Origin: Viridibacillus arenosi
Lineage (GTDB): Bacteria > Bacillota > Bacilli > Bacillales_A > Planococcaceae
Direction: 5' to 3'
Length of the DNA stretch: 64,000 nt
Assembly: GCF_001955655.1 (NCBI RefSeq)
Contig: NZ_MSPW01000015.1
Coordinates: 1 to 64,000, forward strand
Below, piece by piece: positions 14,820 to 26,502 of the stretch (within the stretch, counting starts at the first letter, position 1; every line of letters starts with the position of its first letter). The translations under genes were made by a program, and so were the position numbers. The notes under the pieces were generated by a model that saw nothing but the letters and a program-made list of their open reading frames with translations, was not told the origin of the DNA and searched no databases.

Positions 14820-15138
14820 TTATCTGCCTCCTTTTTTGCATACCTTTTAGTTTATAACATTTTTTAATAAACAATCAACTTAAAAGAGAAAATAAGTACG
14901 GTCAGTCTTTGACTTAATTTTTTTATTTTATTAATAATATTAAAGTCATAAATAAAGACAAACCTAAGTTGATTACAAAGGAATTTTTCGAATGTTGCTT
15001 AATCTATAGTTATGATTTTTACTGATTTGTACTGTCTTTCTTCATATTTAAATATAAGTCTAAAATTTTCAGCATCATAATGAGTATACTGTAATTTGAT
15101 TATTCACCAATGCTATACTTTGAATAATTGTTTGTTAG
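14820..15138. other. Divergent intergenic region, no clear site
   Basis: 319 AT-rich bases between the symporter and the AraC-type regulator. It must hold both promoters, but I could not pick out a convincing operator, riboswitch or terminator. Confidence 0.4.
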
Positions 15139-16350
15139 GTGGTGTTAGAAGTGAATATAAAGGAACATGTTTTAAAAAGGTTAGAAGAACAGCTTCAATT
15201 GCACGGCCATCTCATTGGAGTAGCAGCAGGTTCCGGGATGACGGCTAAGTATGCAGAAGTTGGTGGAGCGGATTTTATACTGGCTTTGAGTTCCGGGCGC
15301 TTTCGTCAAATGGGTGTTAGCTCATTAGGAGGCTTTTTAGCTTACGACAATAGCAATGATCTTGTTATGAGTTATGCATCGAAAGAGTTGATCCCTATTG
15401 TTAATAATATTCCTGTAATCTTTGGATTACAGGCAACAGATCCCACAATCGAGTTGGCTGAAAAACTAAATGAAATTGAGAGGGCAGGATTTGCTGGTAT
15501 TAATAATTTCCCGAGTGTGGGGTTAATAGATGGCCAATTTCGTGAGGCATTAGAGGAAAATGGGATGAGTTATGCACGTGAAGTGGAAGCTATTGCGATG
15601 GCGAACAAGAGAGGACTATTTACTGTTGCTTTTGTATTTAATGTGGAACAGGCAGAGCAAATGATGAAAGCTGGGGCAGCGATCATTTGCGCGCATTTGG
15701 GACTAACAGTAGGTGGTTCTCTCGGAGCTAAGAAGATTTTATCATTGCAGCATGCAAAGAATCTTGCAATGGAAATATTTGAACGTTGTGAGCAATTTAA
15801 TAGACCGGTTATACATATGATATATGGTGGTCCCGTGAATAAACCAATAGATGTCCAATTTATGTATGATGGTACATCAATCATGGGATATATTGGCGGT
15901 TCTTCTATAGAACGCATACCTACTGAACAAACAGTTACACAAGTTACAAAGTCTTTTAAGAAATCGGATGACTTTCATTATGATGAGCTAATAGAGAAGA
16001 TTATTGATGGGATGGGGAGTCAAAGAGACTATATTGAATTTGTGAAGAAATATATTCACCTTCATTATATGGATCAAATTCATTTACGGGATATTGCCAA
16101 AATGTTGAATTTATCAAGTTCATATTTAAGTACATTATTTAAATCTGAAGTAGGAATGGCTTTTACACAATATCTAATTGAATTTAGATTGAATAGAGCT
16201 GTTGATATATTAAAAAAACAGTCTTTACCATTAACGAATGTGGCTGAAATGGTAGGTTACCCAAACTATGTACAATTTAGCGTCATATTTAAAAAGCATA
16301 AAGGCGTTTCTCCAAAAGAATTTATAGAATCTAACATAAACAAAAGTTAA
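15139..16350 (+). CDS. TIM-barrel (PEP-hydrolase-like) / AraC HTH fusion regulator
   Basis: A 403-residue fusion. Residues ~8-283 are a TIM barrel of the PEP-hydrolase-like family (PF09370 type), with GVAAGSGMTAK, VGGADF, SSGRF, NFPSVGLIDG, AHLGLTVGG, YGGPV and GGSSIERIP. Residues ~300-400 form two AraC helix-turn-helix units (IHLRDIAKMLNLSSSYLSTLF and LTNVAEMVGYPNYVQFSVIFKK, in part). The barrel is plainly homologous to the stand-alone enzyme-like gene at 17685-18515, so it is probably a ligand sensor for the same small molecule. This barrel is known as an N-terminal domain of sigma-54 activators; a fusion to AraC is less familiar to me. It likely controls the two genes downstream. Confidence 0.85.
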   Translation: MVLEVNIKEHVLKRLEEQLQLHGHLIGVAAGSGMTAKYAEVGGADFILALSSGRFRQMGVSSLGGFLAYDNSNDLVMSYASKELIPIVNNIPVIFGLQATDPTIELAEKLNEIERAGFAGINNFPSVGLIDGQFREALEENGMSYAREVEAIAMANKRGLFTVAFVFNVEQAEQMMKAGAAIICAHLGLTVGGSLGAKKILSLQHAKNLAMEIFERCEQFNRPVIHMIYGGPVNKPIDVQFMYDGTSIMGYIGGSSIERIPTEQTVTQVTKSFKKSDDFHYDELIEKIIDGMGSQRDYIEFVKKYIHLHYMDQIHLRDIAKMLNLSSSYLSTLFKSEVGMAFTQYLIEFRLNRAVDILKKQSLPLTNVAEMVGYPNYVQFSVIFKKHKGVSPKEFIESNINKS

Positions 16351-16409
16351 TGAAATATAAACAGATTCATTTTGCCTGTATGAATTGGTATATTAATGAT
16401 AAGAAGTTT

Positions 16410-16423
16410 TGAAAGCGTTTTCT
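16410..16423 (+). promoter_or_regulatory. Candidate cre site (CcpA)
   Basis: TGAAAGCGTTTTCT matches the cre consensus TGWAANCGNTNWCA at all fixed positions but the last. It lies about 50 bases before the UPF0261 gene, suggesting carbon catabolite control of the operon. Confidence 0.55.
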
Positions 16424-16460: not shown

Positions 16461-17669
16461 TTGAAAACAATCGCATTGACAGGTACCTTCGATACAAAAG
16501 GACAAGAGTTTCTATTTGTAAAAGAACTTATTGAATCTTTAGGAATGCAAACATTGACGATTCATACGGGAGTATTTGATCCTCAATTTAAACCAGATGT
16601 GAATAATGATGAGGTTGTAGGTATTGTTGGTGAAGACATTATAGCAATTCAAGAAAAAAAGGATCGAGCACATGCTACAGCGGTTCTATCAAAAGGTATG
16701 GAACTACTAATTCCAAAACTCTATGCTGAAGGTAAATTTGATGGCATTCTATCGTTCGGTGGCACAGGTGGAACCTCGATTGCGACACCAGGTATGCGTA
16801 AATTACCAATAGGTGTTCCAAAAGTGATGGTTTCAACTGTAGCTTCTGGTAACACTGAGCCATATGTTGGAACAAGCGATATCGTGATGATGCCATCTGT
16901 TGTAGATGTTGCAGGGCTAAATGTCATTTCTACTCGTATTTTTACAAATGCAGCCTTTGCGATTATGGGTATGCTTCACTTTGAACATGATTTGAAATTT
17001 GAAAAGAAACCGCTAGTAGCAGCTACAATGTTTGGTTTAACAACTCCTTGTGTGAATTTCGCTAAGAAATATATGGAGGACCGCGGATATGAAGTACTGA
17101 TATTCCATGCTACTGGTGTAGGTGGCCGGACAATGGAACAGTTAATCGAAACAGGATTTATAGATGGTGTATTAGACTTCACCACTACTGAATGGGCAGA
17201 TGAATTAGTTGGCGGTGTTTTAGCTGCTGGACCAAGTCGTTTAGAAGCAGCGGCTAAAAAAGGTATCCCACAAGTTGTTTCTTTAGGTGCTCTTGATATG
17301 GTGAACTTCGGACCATTTGATTCTGTTCCAGAGAAATTTGGAGGACGTAATTTCTACAAACATAATCCAACAGTTACATTAATGCGAACAAATGAAGAAG
17401 AAAATAACCGAATTGGTGAAGTAATTGCTGAAAAGTTAAATATGGCAAAAAAAGATACAGTATTAATGCTTCCGTTGAAAGGTTTATCGGGGCTTGATGT
17501 AGAAGGACAGTCTTTCTATGGTCCTGAAGAGGACACTGCGTTATTTACTGCACTGCGTAAAAAATTAGATAATCCAACAGTTGAAATTGTTGAAATGGAT
17601 TTAGATATTAATGCACAAGCATTTGCAGAACAAGCAGCTGAGCGCTTAATAGCAATGATGAACAAATAA
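16461..17669 (+). CDS. UPF0261 / Tm-1-like ATP-binding domain protein
   Basis: A ~402-residue protein of the UPF0261 (PF06792) family, which matches the N-terminal half of the tomato Tm-1 protein. It opens with the family block IALTGTFDTKG and has FGGTGGTS and PKVMVSTVASGNT further on. TTG at 16461 is taken as the start because GGGAGAG lies 6 bases upstream; an in-frame ATG at 16455 overlaps that site, so the N-terminus is uncertain by two residues. The TIM-barrel gene follows after 15 bases. No reaction is established that I can name. Confidence 0.85.
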   Translation: MKTIALTGTFDTKGQEFLFVKELIESLGMQTLTIHTGVFDPQFKPDVNNDEVVGIVGEDIIAIQEKKDRAHATAVLSKGMELLIPKLYAEGKFDGILSFGGTGGTSIATPGMRKLPIGVPKVMVSTVASGNTEPYVGTSDIVMMPSVVDVAGLNVISTRIFTNAAFAIMGMLHFEHDLKFEKKPLVAATMFGLTTPCVNFAKKYMEDRGYEVLIFHATGVGGRTMEQLIETGFIDGVLDFTTTEWADELVGGVLAAGPSRLEAAAKKGIPQVVSLGALDMVNFGPFDSVPEKFGGRNFYKHNPTVTLMRTNEEENNRIGEVIAEKLNMAKKDTVLMLPLKGLSGLDVEGQSFYGPEEDTALFTALRKKLDNPTVEIVEMDLDINAQAFAEQAAERLIAMMNK

Positions 17670-17684
17670 AGAGGAGTGACAAAA

Positions 17685-18515
17685 ATGGTTCAATTAAATA
17701 GAAAAGATATTTTAGCACGTTTTACTGAAGAAATTTCCAATGGAAACATCTTATTAGGAGTAGGAGCAGGTACAGGTATTACTGCAAAAAGTAGTGAGGC
17801 AGGCGGAGCTGATATGCTAATTGTATATAACTCAGGTCGTTACCGTATGGCTGGTCGTGGCTCACTTGCAGGATTGTTATCTTATGGAGATGCAAATCAA
17901 ATAGTTATAGAAATGGGCAATGAAGTATTACCAGTAGTCAAAGATACACCAGTTTTAGCAGGTGTGAATGGTACTGACCCATTCCGTGTAATGGATGTCT
18001 TTTTAAAGCAATTAAAAGAACAAGGTTTCAGCGGTGTTCAAAACTTCCCAACAGTTGGTTTAATCGATGGTGTATTCCGTCAAAACCTTGAGGAAACTGG
18101 CATGGGTTATGGACTTGAAGTAGAAATGATTCGTAAAGCGCATGAATTAGATATGTTGACAACACCTTATGTGTTTGATGAAGAACAAGCGAAGCAAATG
18201 GCTGAAGCAGGTGCAGATATCTTAGTTGCTCACATGGGACTGACGACAAAAGGAACAATTGGTGCACATACTGCATTAACATTGGATGACTGTGTGGAAC
18301 GAATTCAAAAAATTATCGAAGCAGGTCGCGCTATCAATCCTGATATTTTAGTTATTTGCCATGGTGGACCAATCGCGGAACCAGCAGATGCTGAATATGT
18401 AATTAACAAAGTGGACGGTATTTGCGGTTTCTTCGGTGCCTCAAGTATAGAGCGTTTCGCTGCAGAAAAAGGAATTAGAGAACAATCAGAAGCTTTCAAG
18501 AATATTCGTTCTTAA
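17685..18515 (+). CDS. PEP-hydrolase-like TIM-barrel protein (Tm-1 C-terminal half)
   Basis: A 276-residue TIM barrel of the PF09370 family. Conserved blocks are [49 protein letters not shown] and [11 protein letters not shown]. It matches the C-terminal half of plant Tm-1, whose N-terminal half is the gene just upstream. ATG at 17685 lies 8 bases after GAGGAG; a GTG at 17676 overlaps that site. The barrel of the AraC fusion at 15139 is a paralogue. The name PEP hydrolase comes from family annotation and is not proof of substrate. Confidence 0.85.
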
Positions 18516-19843: not shown

Positions 19844-20746
19844 TTAATCATTCGCTTTGTAGTCATATGCTAAAGTGTGAATCACTTTCTTTACAAACTC
19901 ATCAATTTTACTATCTAAGCGACACTTAGGGTAAACGAGCTGAATTTTGCGGGTTAGAGTAATATCGTTCAATTCCTTTTTGAGTAATGTTCCTGATTTT
20001 AGTTCTTCATCCATTAGAGCAATAGAGATAAAGGCTAATGTTTTGCCGTAAGTTAACATCTTCTTAATGGTACTAACTGAATCTAGTTCAATTGTGTAGA
20101 TAGATGGTGCAAAAGGATCTAACCACTTTCCGATGAAATGATTAGTTGAGCTTGAAGAGGTATGCAATAATATTTTGCTTTTAAGGACATCTGATTTTGA
20201 GATGTCCTTTTTTGTTGCAAGTTCGTGTGTGGGACTTAATGCAAGAACAAGAGAATCTTCACCAATAGTTTCGTAAATGAGTGCTTGATCTTCTTGTTTT
20301 GTTTCCATTATAAGTCCAAAGTCTAGCTCTTGAAGTATTAACTTCCTTTCGATTTCAGGAGCCGTCTTTACTTCTAAAGAAATTCTTATATCTGGATAAG
20401 CTGTGGAAATTTGATCGATGATATCAGGCATGAAAATATGGGCAGGAAGCCCACTTGCACCTAGTCGAATTGAGCCGATATTGCCTTCTATTAGGTTTTC
20501 AAAGAATTGATTCATGTCTTTTTGTAGCTGTACGATTTGCCGCGCATAGTGATAGAGTCCTTCTCCCGCCTCAGTTAAACGATAACCCCCAGCATTTGTA
20601 CGGAATAAGCGTACTCCATATTCTTCTTCTATTGAACGAATATGAAATGATACAGTAGGCGCAGTAATGCCTAGCTCTTTAGCAACAGGAGCTAGCTTTT
20701 TTAAATTTACGAGCAAGCAAAATGCCTGTAATTTGAGATTATTCAT
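19844..20746 (-). CDS. LysR family transcriptional regulator
   Basis: A 300-residue regulator with an N-terminal winged helix (VAKELGITAPTVSFHIRSIE near residue 20) and a LysR substrate-binding domain. An AGGAGGATAAA site precedes the ATG. It is divergent from the ABC importer operon starting at 20884, separated by 137 bases, so it is the natural candidate to regulate that importer; it could also affect the SDR behind it. Confidence 0.9.
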   Translation of the reverse strand: MNNLKLQAFCLLVNLKKLAPVAKELGITAPTVSFHIRSIEEEYGVRLFRTNAGGYRLTEAGEGLYHYARQIVQLQKDMNQFFENLIEGNIGSIRLGASGLPAHIFMPDIIDQISTAYPDIRISLEVKTAPEIERKLILQELDFGLIMETKQEDQALIYETIGEDSLVLALSPTHELATKKDISKSDVLKSKILLHTSSSSTNHFIGKWLDPFAPSIYTIELDSVSTIKKMLTYGKTLAFISIALMDEELKSGTLLKKELNDITLTRKIQLVYPKCRLDSKIDEFVKKVIHTLAYDYKAND

Positions 20747-20883
20747 TTTATCCTCCTAAAGTAAATTAGATAAACTCTTGCATTGGCTATAGTATATTAG
20801 AGTTTTTTTAACGAATTGTTAATACTAGGTTAATATTTCCTAAATATCTGGATCTTATAGTGGTTATAGACGAGGAGGGCATT

Positions 20884-21849
20884 ATGAAAATCTCGATTAC
20901 GAATATAGAAAAGAAGTATGGGAAATCTCAAGCACTCTGGCCGATTAATGTAGAACTAGACAGTAAGTTTGTAACAATTTTAGGTCAATCGGGTTGTGGT
21001 AAAACTACGTTATTAAAAATACTAGCTGGTTTAGAGAAGCCAACAAATGGTGAAATCAGATTTGACGAAACAGTTATCTATTCGTCAGATCTTCGTAAGA
21101 ACATTAGACCAAATAAGCGTAATATTGCAATGGTCTTTCAAGACTTTGCACTTTGGCCACATATGACTATTTTTCAGAATATTGCTTTTGCATTAAAGGG
21201 GGTATTGCCCAAGTCAGAAATTAAGGAACGTGTAGATTATGTTATGCGAATGGTGAAAATGGAGGGTTTCGAGAGACGTAAACCTGGCGAATTATCAGGA
21301 GGTCAGCAGCAACGCGTGGCACTTGCTAGGGCTCTTGCAACTAATCCAAAACTAATTCTATTTGATGAACCTTTATCAGCATTAGATGCAGTTCTTCGAG
21401 AAAAGATGCAAGAAGAGATTATGCATATTATTCATGAGCTAGATTGTCAAGCTATCTTTGTCACACATGATCAAACAGAGGCTATGACAATGTCTGATCA
21501 AATTATCGTGATGGAGGCAGGGAGAATTGCACAGGTAGGTTCACCACAAGAAATCTATCAATCACCAGCTACACCTTATGTGGCAGACTTTATCGGAAAA
21601 GTAAATTGGGTTGATAAAGGTAGCCGTATTGTTCGCCCTGAAGGAGTATCAAGACATTCACAATTAGGGGCTATAGCAAAACAAGCAAAAATAGTGAAAA
21701 GTACTTTTATCGGAGATCGATATTTAGTTCAAGCAGAAGTAGAAGGCAATCAATGGAGCTTTTACGAAAACGCTCCGCTCGAAAAAGGAAAACAGCTTAA
21801 AGTTTTTATAGATGAAAAACAAATTTATCAATTGGAGGGATTACATTGA
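20884..21849 (+). CDS. ABC importer ATP-binding protein (ferric/AEP type)
   Basis: A 321-residue ATPase of the FbpC/PotA kind: Walker A GQSGCGKTT near residue 35, Q-loop MVFQDFALWPHM, signature LSGGQQQRVALARAL and Walker B LILFDEPLSALD, plus a C-terminal extension of ~90 residues (TOBE-like). ATG at 20884 follows GAGGAGGGC; an upstream start at 20860 covers that site. The stop overlaps the TTG start of the binding protein (TTGA). It powers the two-domain permease encoded downstream. Confidence 0.9.
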   Translation: MKISITNIEKKYGKSQALWPINVELDSKFVTILGQSGCGKTTLLKILAGLEKPTNGEIRFDETVIYSSDLRKNIRPNKRNIAMVFQDFALWPHMTIFQNIAFALKGVLPKSEIKERVDYVMRMVKMEGFERRKPGELSGGQQQRVALARALATNPKLILFDEPLSALDAVLREKMQEEIMHIIHELDCQAIFVTHDQTEAMTMSDQIIVMEAGRIAQVGSPQEIYQSPATPYVADFIGKVNWVDKGSRIVRPEGVSRHSQLGAIAKQAKIVKSTFIGDRYLVQAEVEGNQWSFYENAPLEKGKQLKVFIDEKQIYQLEGLH

Positions 21850-22874
21850 AGAAACGTAGTTTAAAAATGATAGCAACAGTTGGAACACTTTTGACATTAG
21901 CATTAGCTGGGTGTGGAAATAGTGACACAGCCACAAATGATGGTGAAGCAAGCGCACAATCTAAAGAAAATAAAACACTAACAGTTTATTCTGCTGGACC
22001 AGATGGTTTGGCAGCAAATGTACAACAAGCATTCGAAGAAAAAACAGGAATGAAGGTAGAGATGTTCCAAGGAACAACAGGGAAAATTTTATCTCGCTTA
22101 GAAGCAGAGAAAACAAACCCTGTTGCAGATGTTGTCGTATTAGCTTCAGTAGCTTCAATGGATGGGATGAAAGAAGCCAATCAACTTCAAAGTTATAAAG
22201 ACGCTGAAAATGCAGGTAAAATCAATAGCGATTGGTCGGACGCAGAAGGCTATTATTATGGCTACAGTGCATCAGCTTTAGGAATTGCTTACAATACTAA
22301 AAATGCAAAATCAGCTCCAAGCGAATGGTCTGATTTAGCGAAAGCTGAATGGAAAGATAAAATCAATATTCCAGATCCGAGTCTGTCGGGTTCAGCTGTT
22401 GATTTCATCTATGGATATACGGAAGCAGAAAAAACTGGTTGGGACATTGTTCAATCATGGAAAACAAATGGTTTACAAGTAAATGGTGCAAATAAGGAAG
22501 CATTAGACTCAGTTATTACTGGAGATAAAGATGCAACAATTTCTGGAGTAGATTACATGGCCTATAAAGCAAAAGCAGATGGAGAGCCTGTAGAAATTGT
22601 TTACCCGAAAAGTGGAACAGTTGTCAGCCCACGAGCAGTTGGAATTATGAAAGATGCAAAAAATGTAGATGGAGCTCAAGCTTACGTTAATTTCTTACTT
22701 TCAGATGAAGGTCAAAAGCTAGTAACAGATGCTTATTTACTTCCGGGGAACAAAGAAATTCCGGTGAAGGATCGCGCAGCATTGGATGAAATTCCTCAAC
22801 TAACTGTGAATTGGAAAGGCGCAGAGACAAAGCAAATCGATATTTTAACGAAATTTAACGAGATTTTCCAATAA
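21846..22874 (+). CDS. ABC importer substrate-binding lipoprotein (ferric/AEP type)
   Basis: A 342-residue lipoprotein with signal peptide and lipobox LALAGC around residue 23. The mature part begins LTVYSAGPDGLA and has EGYYYGYSASALGIAYNT and PRAVGIMKDAKN, typical of the iron/phosphonate/spermidine-like class of periplasmic-fold binding proteins. The start is TTG at 21846, after GGAGG, overlapping the ATPase stop. Ferric iron, 2-aminoethylphosphonate or an organophosphate are all possible ligands; the sequence alone does not decide. Confidence 0.88.
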   Translation: MKKRSLKMIATVGTLLTLALAGCGNSDTATNDGEASAQSKENKTLTVYSAGPDGLAANVQQAFEEKTGMKVEMFQGTTGKILSRLEAEKTNPVADVVVLASVASMDGMKEANQLQSYKDAENAGKINSDWSDAEGYYYGYSASALGIAYNTKNAKSAPSEWSDLAKAEWKDKINIPDPSLSGSAVDFIYGYTEAEKTGWDIVQSWKTNGLQVNGANKEALDSVITGDKDATISGVDYMAYKAKADGEPVEIVYPKSGTVVSPRAVGIMKDAKNVDGAQAYVNFLLSDEGQKLVTDAYLLPGNKEIPVKDRAALDEIPQLTVNWKGAETKQIDILTKFNEIFQ

Positions 22875-22882
22875 TAATTTAT

Positions 22883-22914
22883 GAGCTGAGACATTTTTCT
22901 CAGCTCTTGTTTTC
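22883..22914 (+). terminator. Intra-operon attenuating hairpin
   Basis: Perfect 9-bp stem GAGCTGAGA / TCTCAGCTC with a 6-base loop followed by TTGTTTT. It lies between binding protein and permease genes and would lower permease transcription or protect the upstream mRNA end. Confidence 0.65.
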
Positions 22915-22935
22915 TAAGGAAGGAATGAAACCTCG

Positions 22936-24597
22936 ATGATTATGGAAGGTAGACAAACTTTTGGAGTATTACTAGCCATTGTTGGTACGTTTGCTATCGC
23001 GCCATTATTAGCAATTCTATATTATACATTTGTTGATGGCGGGCAATTAGATTTTTCGCAGATTAGTAGAATGTTTGAAAATGATAGAATGTGGCATACG
23101 TTAGGCAACTCTTTACTATTAGGTGTTTTAGTAATTTTGGGTACTACGATTATAGCTTTACCAATGGCGTTAATTCGTACGAAAACTAGCCTGATCAAAT
23201 TTGATTGGTTAGATATTGTTCTAACGATTCCCTTTATGACACCGCCATATATTGGGTCAATGGGCTGGATATTGTTTATGCAGAATAATGGTTTTTTGCA
23301 ACAATTAATGCCAGGTGTATCATGGATGTCAGATTATTTCTTCTCTCTGTTTGGAATGGTAATGGTGATGAGTTTGCACCTATTTCCTTTTCTATATTTA
23401 ATGCTGAGAAATACACTGCTAAGAATTAATGGATCCTTTCTTGATGCTGCATTGATATTCGGACGAAATCCGTGGAGAAACTGGGCTAAAATTGTTTTAC
23501 CATTACTAGTTTCGAGTTACGTACTAGGCGTATTACTAATTTTCATAAAGACCTTGGCTGAATTCGGTACTCCTGCAACTTTTGGCAGCAGAATTGGCTT
23601 TCAGGTTTTTACTACAGAGATCCATTCCTATTTATCAAGATGGCCTGTAGACATTAGTATGGCCACATCACTTTCTTTATTTTTACTTTCTGTTTGTCTG
23701 ATCATCTGGTACTTCCAAAATCTAATTGGACGAAAAAATACATATAGCGTGTTATCTGGTAAGACGCAAGCTATTCGAGAAATGAAAGATAAGTGGTATA
23801 TAAAGCTAGGTGCATGGCTATATGTAGGAATTGTATTACTGTTTTCAATTGGAATCCCTTACTTTTCAATTATTGTGACATCACTACAAAAGGTAAGGGG
23901 AGATGGCCTAAGTGCAGGGAATTTCAGTTTTGCATCTTATCAGGAAGTATTTACTAGTGGTAGTGCGGGACTATCAGCATTTCTGAACAGTATCGTATTT
24001 TCATTTATCACAGCTAGTATTACTGCTGTTATAGGATTATTCATTGCACTTTATATTAAAAAAGGCGAAACAAAAAAACAGCAAGTATTGGATTTCTTTA
24101 GTCTTATGCCAAATATTATTCCCGGAATTGTGTTTGTAGTAGGTTTAATCATGTTCTGGAACTCACCTTTACTACCAGCTACGATTTACAATACGAAAGC
24201 AATGGTGGTTGTGACCTATTGTGTACTATTCTTACCATACTCGGTTCAATATACGAAATCTTCTTTATCTCAATTAGATCAATCCATTTTCCAATCAGCT
24301 GCTATTTTTGGACGGAATAGTTGGGACGTGTATCGATATATCTTTATCCCATTGTTAATGCAGGGAATTCTAGCTGGGATGATGATGACATTTATTATTT
24401 CGATGCGTGAACTTGTAGCGGGATTACTCATTTTGCCACCTTCAGTTGAGACCGGCGCAACGTTTATTTACAGCCAGTTTGAACAAGGAAACGTTGGTTT
24501 AGGAATGGCAGTTGCTGTTATTACAGTAGCTATGACTGTCATCTTCATGTTCCTGTTAGATTGGTTGCAAAAAAGAGGGGGGCATGCGGGTGCTTAA
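22936..24597 (+). CDS. ABC importer permease, two fused domains (FbpB-like)
   Basis: A 553-residue membrane protein with about 12 hydrophobic segments and two copies of the permease fold, as in FbpB. Each half has the EAA-type loop that contacts the ATPase: FLDAALIFGRNPWRNWAKIVLPLL near residue 170 (shown in part) and IFQSAAIFGRNSWDVYRYI near residue 455. It belongs with the ATPase and binding protein upstream. Its 3' end overlaps the next gene by 14 bases, which ties the hydrolase to transport. Confidence 0.88.
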   Translation: MIMEGRQTFGVLLAIVGTFAIAPLLAILYYTFVDGGQLDFSQISRMFENDRMWHTLGNSLLLGVLVILGTTIIALPMALIRTKTSLIKFDWLDIVLTIPFMTPPYIGSMGWILFMQNNGFLQQLMPGVSWMSDYFFSLFGMVMVMSLHLFPFLYLMLRNTLLRINGSFLDAALIFGRNPWRNWAKIVLPLLVSSYVLGVLLIFIKTLAEFGTPATFGSRIGFQVFTTEIHSYLSRWPVDISMATSLSLFLLSVCLIIWYFQNLIGRKNTYSVLSGKTQAIREMKDKWYIKLGAWLYVGIVLLFSIGIPYFSIIVTSLQKVRGDGLSAGNFSFASYQEVFTSGSAGLSAFLNSIVFSFITASITAVIGLFIALYIKKGETKKQQVLDFFSLMPNIIPGIVFVVGLIMFWNSPLLPATIYNTKAMVVVTYCVLFLPYSVQYTKSSLSQLDQSIFQSAAIFGRNSWDVYRYIFIPLLMQGILAGMMMTFIISMRELVAGLLILPPSVETGATFIYSQFEQGNVGLGMAVAVITVAMTVIFMFLLDWLQKRGGHAGA

Positions 24598-25696
24598 GGT
24601 TGAAATTTTAGGGGGAGTTGGCGAGTACGGGCGTAATTGTTTTTTTATAGAAAATGAGGAGCATGCCATTTTACTCGACTGTGGCATTATGAATGATGCT
24701 GAAAAAACTCCTCCTAATTTAACAAAAGATCATGTAGAAAAACTCGATGCTGTGTTTATCTCACATTCGCATATTGATCATTCAGGTGCATTGCCGATGC
24801 TAGAAACATGGGACTATAAAGGTGAAATCTTTATGAGTAAAATGACAGCTAGACAATTAAAACGATCGTTTAAAAATACAAAGATTTTTCAACCAACAAC
24901 GATTGAAAAATGGTTGAGAGTTAGTGATTATCTTGAATTTCAGTGGGGCTATAGCGGCCATATAGTAGGGAGTGTTTGGTACAAGATTCGATTCTTTAAG
25001 GAGGTGATATTTTTCTCAGGGGACTATGTCATGGATTCCTATTTATTAAATGCCACTTTACCACAAGTAGATGGAACCAAGTACGATCTAGCTTTAATAG
25101 ATAGTGGACATATTGAGAAACAGATTAATAATTTGGAAGTATTACAACAGATTAAGAAGTATATCGAGGAACAACCAAGTCGTCCTATTATTTTTCCCTC
25201 TTCTTTTTCAGGTAAAACAGCTGATATTGCTACGTATCTTTTTCAACATACAGAAAGAGAAGTAAACATTGATAAAGAATACTTTTCTTTTCTTGAGGAT
25301 TACTATAATTCACCTGAAAATATTCGTACACCAAGATATGAAGAAATCTTGAAATCATTTAAGATGGACTGTTTTAGAGAGAGGGTAGAGAGTGAAAATG
25401 CAATCTATTTCGTTTCAGAGATTAATGAGTGGAAAATTGAAGAATTATTACACATATATCCAACTGCAATAGTAATTTTTACAGGCTACATGAAAAAAGA
25501 TGGATATTTAAAGAGACTAGCCAGAAATAAAGCTCAATCGAAGCAGTTTTTTTATAAAACACATTTAGATTATCTAGATATCTTAGAGCTTTCAAAAACA
25601 ATAAATGCTACTGATACTATATATTTCCATAGTCGATTAACAAATAGGAAAACTACTTTTACAAAATTAGTAGAAAAAAAGGAGGAAATAATATAA
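24584..25696 (+). CDS. Metallo-beta-lactamase fold hydrolase, beta-CASP-like
   Basis: A 370-residue protein. The N-terminus resembles RNase J/CPSF enzymes: LGGVGEYGRNCF, then the metal motif HSHIDHSGALP near residue 62, SGHIVGS near residue 125 and SGDYVMDS near residue 145. Later blocks (VIFTGYMKKDG, YKTHLDYLDI, YFHSRL) look like weak beta-CASP motifs, although the protein is shorter than RNase J and has no clear C-terminal domain. It overlaps the permease gene by 14 bases and abuts the secreted protein by one base, so it is part of the importer operon. Nuclease, phosphoesterase or cyclic-phosphate hydrolase are possible. Confidence 0.75.
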   Translation: MRVLKVEILGGVGEYGRNCFFIENEEHAILLDCGIMNDAEKTPPNLTKDHVEKLDAVFISHSHIDHSGALPMLETWDYKGEIFMSKMTARQLKRSFKNTKIFQPTTIEKWLRVSDYLEFQWGYSGHIVGSVWYKIRFFKEVIFFSGDYVMDSYLLNATLPQVDGTKYDLALIDSGHIEKQINNLEVLQQIKKYIEEQPSRPIIFPSSFSGKTADIATYLFQHTEREVNIDKEYFSFLEDYYNSPENIRTPRYEEILKSFKMDCFRERVESENAIYFVSEINEWKIEELLHIYPTAIVIFTGYMKKDGYLKRLARNKAQSKQFFYKTHLDYLDILELSKTINATDTIYFHSRLTNRKTTFTKLVEKKEEII

Positions 25697-26502
25697 TGAA
25701 AATTGTAAAGAAAATAGCACTACAGTTATTTATGGCTAGTCTTGTTCTTCTGTGTATTAGCGGGTACGGTTCCGCTCAGGTGAGTGCAGCGATTAATCCT
25801 GGAAATGAAATTAAGTATAATATCAAACCTGATATTTTTAAAGAATCTAAGATAATAAATGTCTTTTCAGCAACGAAAAAAGATGAAGTAAAAATTTACT
25901 ACTTCGATACAGTAAATAAAGCATTTTTAGGAGTGGACTATAACCATCGCTTACGTGTATATAAAGATAGTAATAAGATAGATATTACTTATAAAAAAAG
26001 GTTCCTAAACACTCCACTTGATGAAGCAATTGCGATAACACAAGATCATGGTTTCACTGGGGACGAATCAAATTATAAATTTGAATTAGATATTAAGGGT
26101 GGTAATCATACTTTTGCAGTAAGCAGAAAAGAGTCATTAAAAGAAACATCAAAAGTTTCCTTCAACGCTGTTGATACTGAAGCAGCAAAGAAACTAATTT
26201 TAGATAATGCACCGAAAAAAATCCGGAATTGGGATTCTGAAAGTTGGTACAATAATACGTTAACGCAAACTGTTGTTTATGGACCAGCAAAGGCTACTAC
26301 CTATAAGGGTAGTTATGCAGGATATGAAGCGGATATTGAAGTTTGGAATTATCAAGGTGATATCATGGTTGAACTATCAACAAAAGAAGATGATGCTTCA
26401 AAAGCTGCTGTCATTGAAAAATTATGGCACGATAAGTTAGAAGTTGAAGGTTATCTTAGTGAAGATCAACGTGGTAAAACTGCATTTGTAATGGAGAAGT
26501 AA
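25696..26502 (+). CDS. Secreted protein of unknown function (possible CYTH-like fold)
   Basis: A 268-residue protein with a signal peptide (KIVKKIALQLFMASLVLLC, cleavage near VSA-A at residue ~32) and no lipobox. The mature part has alternating charged strands; YNHRLRVYKDSNKIDITYKK near residue 80 recalls the RxR...TxK strands of CYTH/triphosphate-tunnel enzymes, but the usual N-terminal ExExK is not evident. This is a weak structural guess. It is the last gene of the importer operon and starts on the last base of the hydrolase stop. Confidence 0.6.
   Translation: MKIVKKIALQLFMASLVLLCISGYGSAQVSAAINPGNEIKYNIKPDIFKESKIINVFSATKKDEVKIYYFDTVNKAFLGVDYNHRLRVYKDSNKIDITYKKRFLNTPLDEAIAITQDHGFTGDESNYKFELDIKGGNHTFAVSRKESLKETSKVSFNAVDTEAAKKLILDNAPKKIRNWDSESWYNNTLTQTVVYGPAKATTYKGSYAGYEADIEVWNYQGDIMVELSTKEDDASKAAVIEKLWHDKLEVEGYLSEDQRGKTAFVMEK

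Follow-up and report, generated by a model that had tools for sequence, protein, structure and literature searches.

The gene at 15139–16350 in the window, the 64,000-nucleotide stretch of the Viridibacillus arenosi genome analysed here, is likely to encode a one-component activator of the operon behind it, whose non-catalytic TIM barrel most likely binds the substrate or product of the downstream enzyme, or a close analogue of these. The open frame lies on the plus strand and codes for 403 amino acids. Residues 11–275 (15169–15963) match PF09370 in Pfam (E 3e-102; 341.8 bits against a curated cut-off of 33.8; positions 2–266 of the 267 in the profile). HTH_18 covers residues 319–396 (E 5.5e-19) and HTH_AraC matches in two stretches, placing the helix-turn-helix (HTH) pair at about 309–396; the protein thus ends in the roughly 100-residue HTH pair that marks the AraC/XylS family, and it resembles AraC, YesN and others. 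An enzyme-like barrel fused to an AraC HTH pair had been proposed by an earlier sequence-only reading, and the Pfam matches bear this out. The start had been put at 15139; GTG at 15151 is the likely start instead, because a ribosome-binding AGGTGG stands at 15137–15142, which gives a gene of 15151–16350. Viridibacillus arvi is the closest genome, with a regulator 96% identical.

Two genes follow on the same strand. The first encodes a UPF0261 (Tm-1 N-terminal-like) protein (16461–17669; PF06792 and PF23189, Pfam); its frame opens at ATG 16455, and the spacing of the ribosome-binding site and the starts of relatives make TTG 16461 the most likely start, as had been read from the letters. The second (17676–18515; PF09370, E 7.9e-129) is a stand-alone barrel, the presumed enzyme, which has kept His229 and has 2p10 as its closest solved structure. 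The regulator barrel is 39% identical to it over 268 residues (E 7e-70).

The combination of PF09370 with an AraC HTH proved to be conserved. A scan of 84,980 genomes gave 161 relatives, from which 80 loci with the fusion were kept, ranging over Bacilli, Clostridia, Pelosinus and Erysipelotrichaceae, all Bacillota. The trio of AraC-barrel, UPF0261 and barrel stands together in 76 of the 80. In 72 loci the genes follow in that order; two further loci have UPF0261 doubled, two more have the order UPF0261, barrel, AraC-barrel, and the remaining few are mostly interrupted by contig ends or gene calling. Within the family of the window organism, PF09370 was matched in 12 of 200 genomes, and every genome with full-length barrels has both a stand-alone (about 280 aa) and a fused (about 400 aa) copy, about 2.7 kb apart (on neighbouring contig ends in one draft). 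Elsewhere in the class, some families possess a sigma54-type fusion and others only UPF0261 with a stand-alone barrel. In five loci of the survey (L180, L181, L183, L186 and L193) UPF0261 lies between two stand-alone PF09370 barrels that differ from each other, and no fused regulator is present; these operons often include a gene of about 255–285 aa and may represent a two-barrel enzyme. The genome of the window organism also contains, on another contig (C22, locus L083, 5989–6267), a third PF09370 copy, truncated and carrying a stop, which shares about 95% identity with the end of the stand-alone barrel of the window and looks like what is left of a duplicated enzyme gene.

In a tree built from 160 barrels (79 stand-alone, 70 AraC-fused and 11 sigma54-fused), the three kinds separated as clean bipartitions, with supports of 0.97, 0.99 and 1.0. 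After addition of 22 stand-alone and six fused barrels from deeper branches, all fused barrels stayed together (support 0.99). The regulator barrel groups in the clade of fused sensors, outside that of the stand-alone enzymes. By this phylogeny the fused barrels are an old sensor lineage rather than a local duplicate, because every HTH- or sigma54-fused barrel falls into a single clade, from which the stand-alone ones are absent; recent local duplication is ruled out on the same ground. The regulator barrel had been called a paralogue of the downstream one, which is right, but the split is ancient. As the tree is rooted only at its midpoint, the direction of change between enzyme and sensor is itself inferred.

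Two residues separate the groups without exception. His229 is present in 79/79 stand-alone enzymes and in none of the 81 fused sensors, where residue 229 is Tyr in all 70 AraC-fused barrels and Glu, Tyr or Gly in the sigma54-fused ones. Tyr51, also found in 79/79 enzymes, is replaced by Leu in every one of the 81. The regulator of the window follows the rule: where the enzyme has His229 and Tyr51, it has Tyr229 and Leu50, in sensor numbering. In the deeper branches, fused barrels have no His229 and stand-alone barrels possess it; the exceptions are a few that may differ in chemistry elsewhere, and one barrel matched only incompletely in that region. The models place His229 at the end of strand 7 and Tyr51 after strand 2, on the face that houses barrel active sites. 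For both barrels, sensor and enzyme, the best structural match was 2p10 (Mll9387), which aligns with the sensor model over 236 residues (VIA Z 28.6, rmsd 2.4, 36% identity). The AlphaFold loops over the pocket are weak, with sensor pLDDT below 50 at 52–71, 126–134 and 190–200. A catalytic role of His229 or Tyr51 would follow from their invariance and strand-end position, rather than from chemistry.

The barrel might have no small ligand at all, serving as a structural or oligomerisation module or responding to the UPF0261 or enzyme protein by touching it. UPF0261 and TBST proteins are reported to co-evolve (PMC5028733), and the 2p10 entry of the solved relative has six chains. Against this, the sensors are invariant at Tyr229, Phe95, Cys184 and Gly254, at strand ends and on the pocket side, a uniformity for which a pure scaffold would have no need, and we consider such a role unlikely.

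Slightly less probable still is a trigger enzyme, that is, a fused barrel that is catalytic to this day, so that regulation follows turnover. Enzymes have 107 columns conserved at 97% or more; 56 of these persist in 90% or more of the AraC sensors, 33 are partly kept and 18 are lost. The retained set, which speaks for this reading, includes D46, R57, N74, E83, D101, N123, E148, H186, R260 and E264. The lost set, however, includes His229 and Tyr51, gone from the AraC and sigma54 branches alike, and nearly every locus also encodes a stand-alone enzyme that has both. The claim that almost all active-site-like blocks persist therefore stands for just over half of the enzyme-invariant columns and fails at those two residues. 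Since His229 and Tyr51 are replaced in 81/81 sensors, the sensor barrel is probably catalytically dead, with much of its binding site retained.

The UPF0261 and barrel genes nearly abut, whereas 70–230 bp typically separate the regulator gene from UPF0261, so the enzyme-gene promoter should lie in this gap. A motif search in these gaps reached a likelihood of 304, against 60–75 in shuffled sequence, and a second copy of the motif peaks at exactly -21 bp from the best site and hardly anywhere else. An initial single-site motif of 20 bp mixed operator and cre sites, also in the window, and was superseded by a 41-bp tandem model (wACATAAAnACAARAAnAnmR-wACATAAAnACATTTAYwTT), scanned leave-one-out on both strands of whole 13-kb loci. 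Its top match falls upstream of UPF0261 in 74 of 79 loci and, in four more, 333–374 bp upstream. In the window the predicted operator (16333–16373, plus strand) scores 21.5, and the next best site in 64 kb scores 4.8. Half 1 (AACATAAACAAAAGTTAATG, 16333–16352) overlaps the 3' end of the regulator gene, and half 2 (AATATAAACAGATTCATTTT, 16354–16373), 21 bp further on, overlaps the -35 region. A weak -35-like hexamer, TTCATT (16366–16371), holds a fixed position in 66 aligned promoters and is followed after a 17-bp spacer by the -10 hexamer TATATT (16389–16394). In 47 of the 66, TATnAT (at least five of six letters) occupies a single alignment column, spaced 17 bp from the end of repeat 2 that resembles a -35. 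The predicted operator thus has the layout used by AraC/XylS proteins, a pair of direct repeats near -35 spaced by about two helical turns.

Two loci (L103 and L108) have the regulator gene in another place, yet the single-site motif still stands directly upstream of UPF0261, which rules out that the operator is part of the regulator 3' end. Mapping of operators had been suggested upstream of both 15139 and 16461; a site is predicted at the latter, and upstream of the regulator gene the tandem-model scan found none (best score -7.9), so that autoregulation is rejected. We assign the predicted operator to the AraC-barrel regulator by co-occurrence. That some other factor binds the repeat, the AraC protein controlling a different target, is very improbable: the assignment is a prediction and the genome of the window organism carries the site at one place only (no other match at up to three mismatches), but the site has the AraC form of a 21-bp direct repeat overlapping -35, is absent from UPF0261 promoters without an AraC-barrel gene (13/13 score below 0 with the tandem model) and stays with UPF0261 in the loci with a displaced AraC gene.

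Just past the operator, five clostridial and Paenibacillus loci (L111, L116, L121, L130 and L131) contain an inverted repeat, AGTATGATTAAC..GTTAATCATACT, around the predicted start site in the regulator–UPF0261 intergenic region, which may be a further operator or an RNA hairpin.

The same promoter harbours a cre-like site (16409–16423, plus strand; TTGAAAGCGTTTTCT), a perfect match to the consensus WTGNAANCGNWNNCW as used in PMC11445067; a cre in the promoter region is what characterises operons under CcpA. At up to one mismatch, cre sites occur in 26 of the 66 promoters against two expected. Overlap with the operator was ruled out as a source of this excess, which is still strong when counted outside it: perfect sites in seven promoters (0.08 expected) and one-mismatch sites in 19 (1.9 expected). 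The enrichment of cre sites in UPF0261 promoters suggests that the UPF0261-barrel operon is catabolic and under CcpA repression.

In the mechanism that we propose, the PF09370 sensor barrel, a non-catalytic relative of the enzyme, would bind the substrate or product of the enzyme or a close analogue. A ligand-bound dimer of the regulator would place its AraC HTH pairs on the two direct repeats and, as these overlap the -35 of the UPF0261-barrel operon, would recruit RNA polymerase, activating rather than repressing it. Where preferred carbon sources are available, CcpA would probably act through the cre to repress transcription from the same promoter. The earlier idea of an enzyme turned sensor is partly supported: it agrees with a barrel in the place of the AraC sensor, with pocket-side residues largely kept while two enzyme-invariant ones are uniformly lost, and with a predicted operator at the enzyme-operon promoter, though none ahead of the regulator gene; that the sensor would bind what the enzyme uses or makes is the proposed part.

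We know of no ligand for any PF09370 protein, and in the open-access literature we found no demonstrated reaction behind the name 'PEP hydrolase'. The neighbours of the loci vary and point to no common substrate, with cupin proteins recurring; in rhizobia the operons also include sugar ABC transporters, Gfo/Idh/MocA oxidoreductases and a sigma54 barrel regulator. In a Lachnospiraceae locus (L158, 2346–5829) a second tandem operator lies upstream of anion symporter and arylsulfotransferase genes, a clue to the ligand. The window itself encodes, at 19844–26502, a LysR regulator, an ABC transporter resembling the 2-aminoethylphosphonate transporter PhnS2/T2/U2 below curated cut-offs, and a metallo-beta-lactamase-fold protein. 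Near sigma54-barrel operons of four loci (L086, 3355–3957; L171, 3419–4009; L172, 9761–10390; L175, 5668–6168) short proteins of about 165–210 aa are annotated as PEP hydrolase family; that of L086 matches only the middle of PF09370 (56–174 of 267), and they are possibly partial barrels.

Enzyme folds serving as sensors of transcription factors are familiar from MocR/PdxR-type GntR and DJ-1/PfpI-type AraC regulators, which use other folds. Sigma54-fused PF09370 barrels are likewise already known, as the sequence-only reading noted, and 11 of them stand in our tree. The Fis-family regulators of Sinorhizobium fredii NGR234 and Mesorhizobium japonicum pMLa have, as here, a sensor-type barrel without His229 and Tyr51, and their partners are UPF0261 and a stand-alone barrel, as in the window. 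Their output, however, is AAA+/Fis for sigma54 promoters, whereas the regulator described here uses an AraC HTH pair, and the AraC forms constitute a separate clade in Bacillota. In the open-access literature, a scope that leaves most subscription journals outside, we found no publication that treats AraC fused to PF09370; this form, the operator predicted for it and the exchange of the two residues seem to be undescribed.

Tandem direct repeats touching -35 are a known layout of AraC-type activators. In the AraC/XylS activator CphR they extend from about -35 to -69 and the proximal copy touches -35 (PMC6205950); those of the window similarly overlap -35, running from about -28 to -68 of the inferred start site. 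The sensor differs, being a TIM barrel here and the usual N-terminal domain in CphR-type activators. Mll9387 (2p10), named a putative phosphonopyruvate hydrolase although this function is unproven, is a stand-alone member of the enzyme clade without a DNA-binding domain. The plant protein Tm-1, which inhibits tomato mosaic virus replication and makes tomato resistant to a virus, is a UPF0261 fused to a PF09370-type domain; its origin and the co-evolution of the PF09370 family with UPF0261 are the subject of PMC5028733, the single in-depth paper that we found on this family. Tm-1 thus unites the same two families as the genes at 16461–18515, but in one fused plant protein and without the AraC part.

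With two residues present in 79/79 enzymes and absent from 81/81 fused barrels, the family offers a clean example of an enzyme fold turned to sensing. Tentatively, and at a little short of an even chance, a single recruitment made PF09370 barrels into a non-catalytic sensor that later passed between the unrelated outputs sigma54/Fis and AraC, reading the ligand of the controlled enzyme in both. A regulator most likely binding the ligand of the pair, together with a single-operon promoter, would make for a simple reporter or thermal-shift screen for the substrate. If the recruitment was single and the sensor does read the ligand of the enzyme it controls, it would therefore be a ready biosensor for the substrate of the UPF0261/PF09370 pair, from whose ancestry Tm-1 stems.
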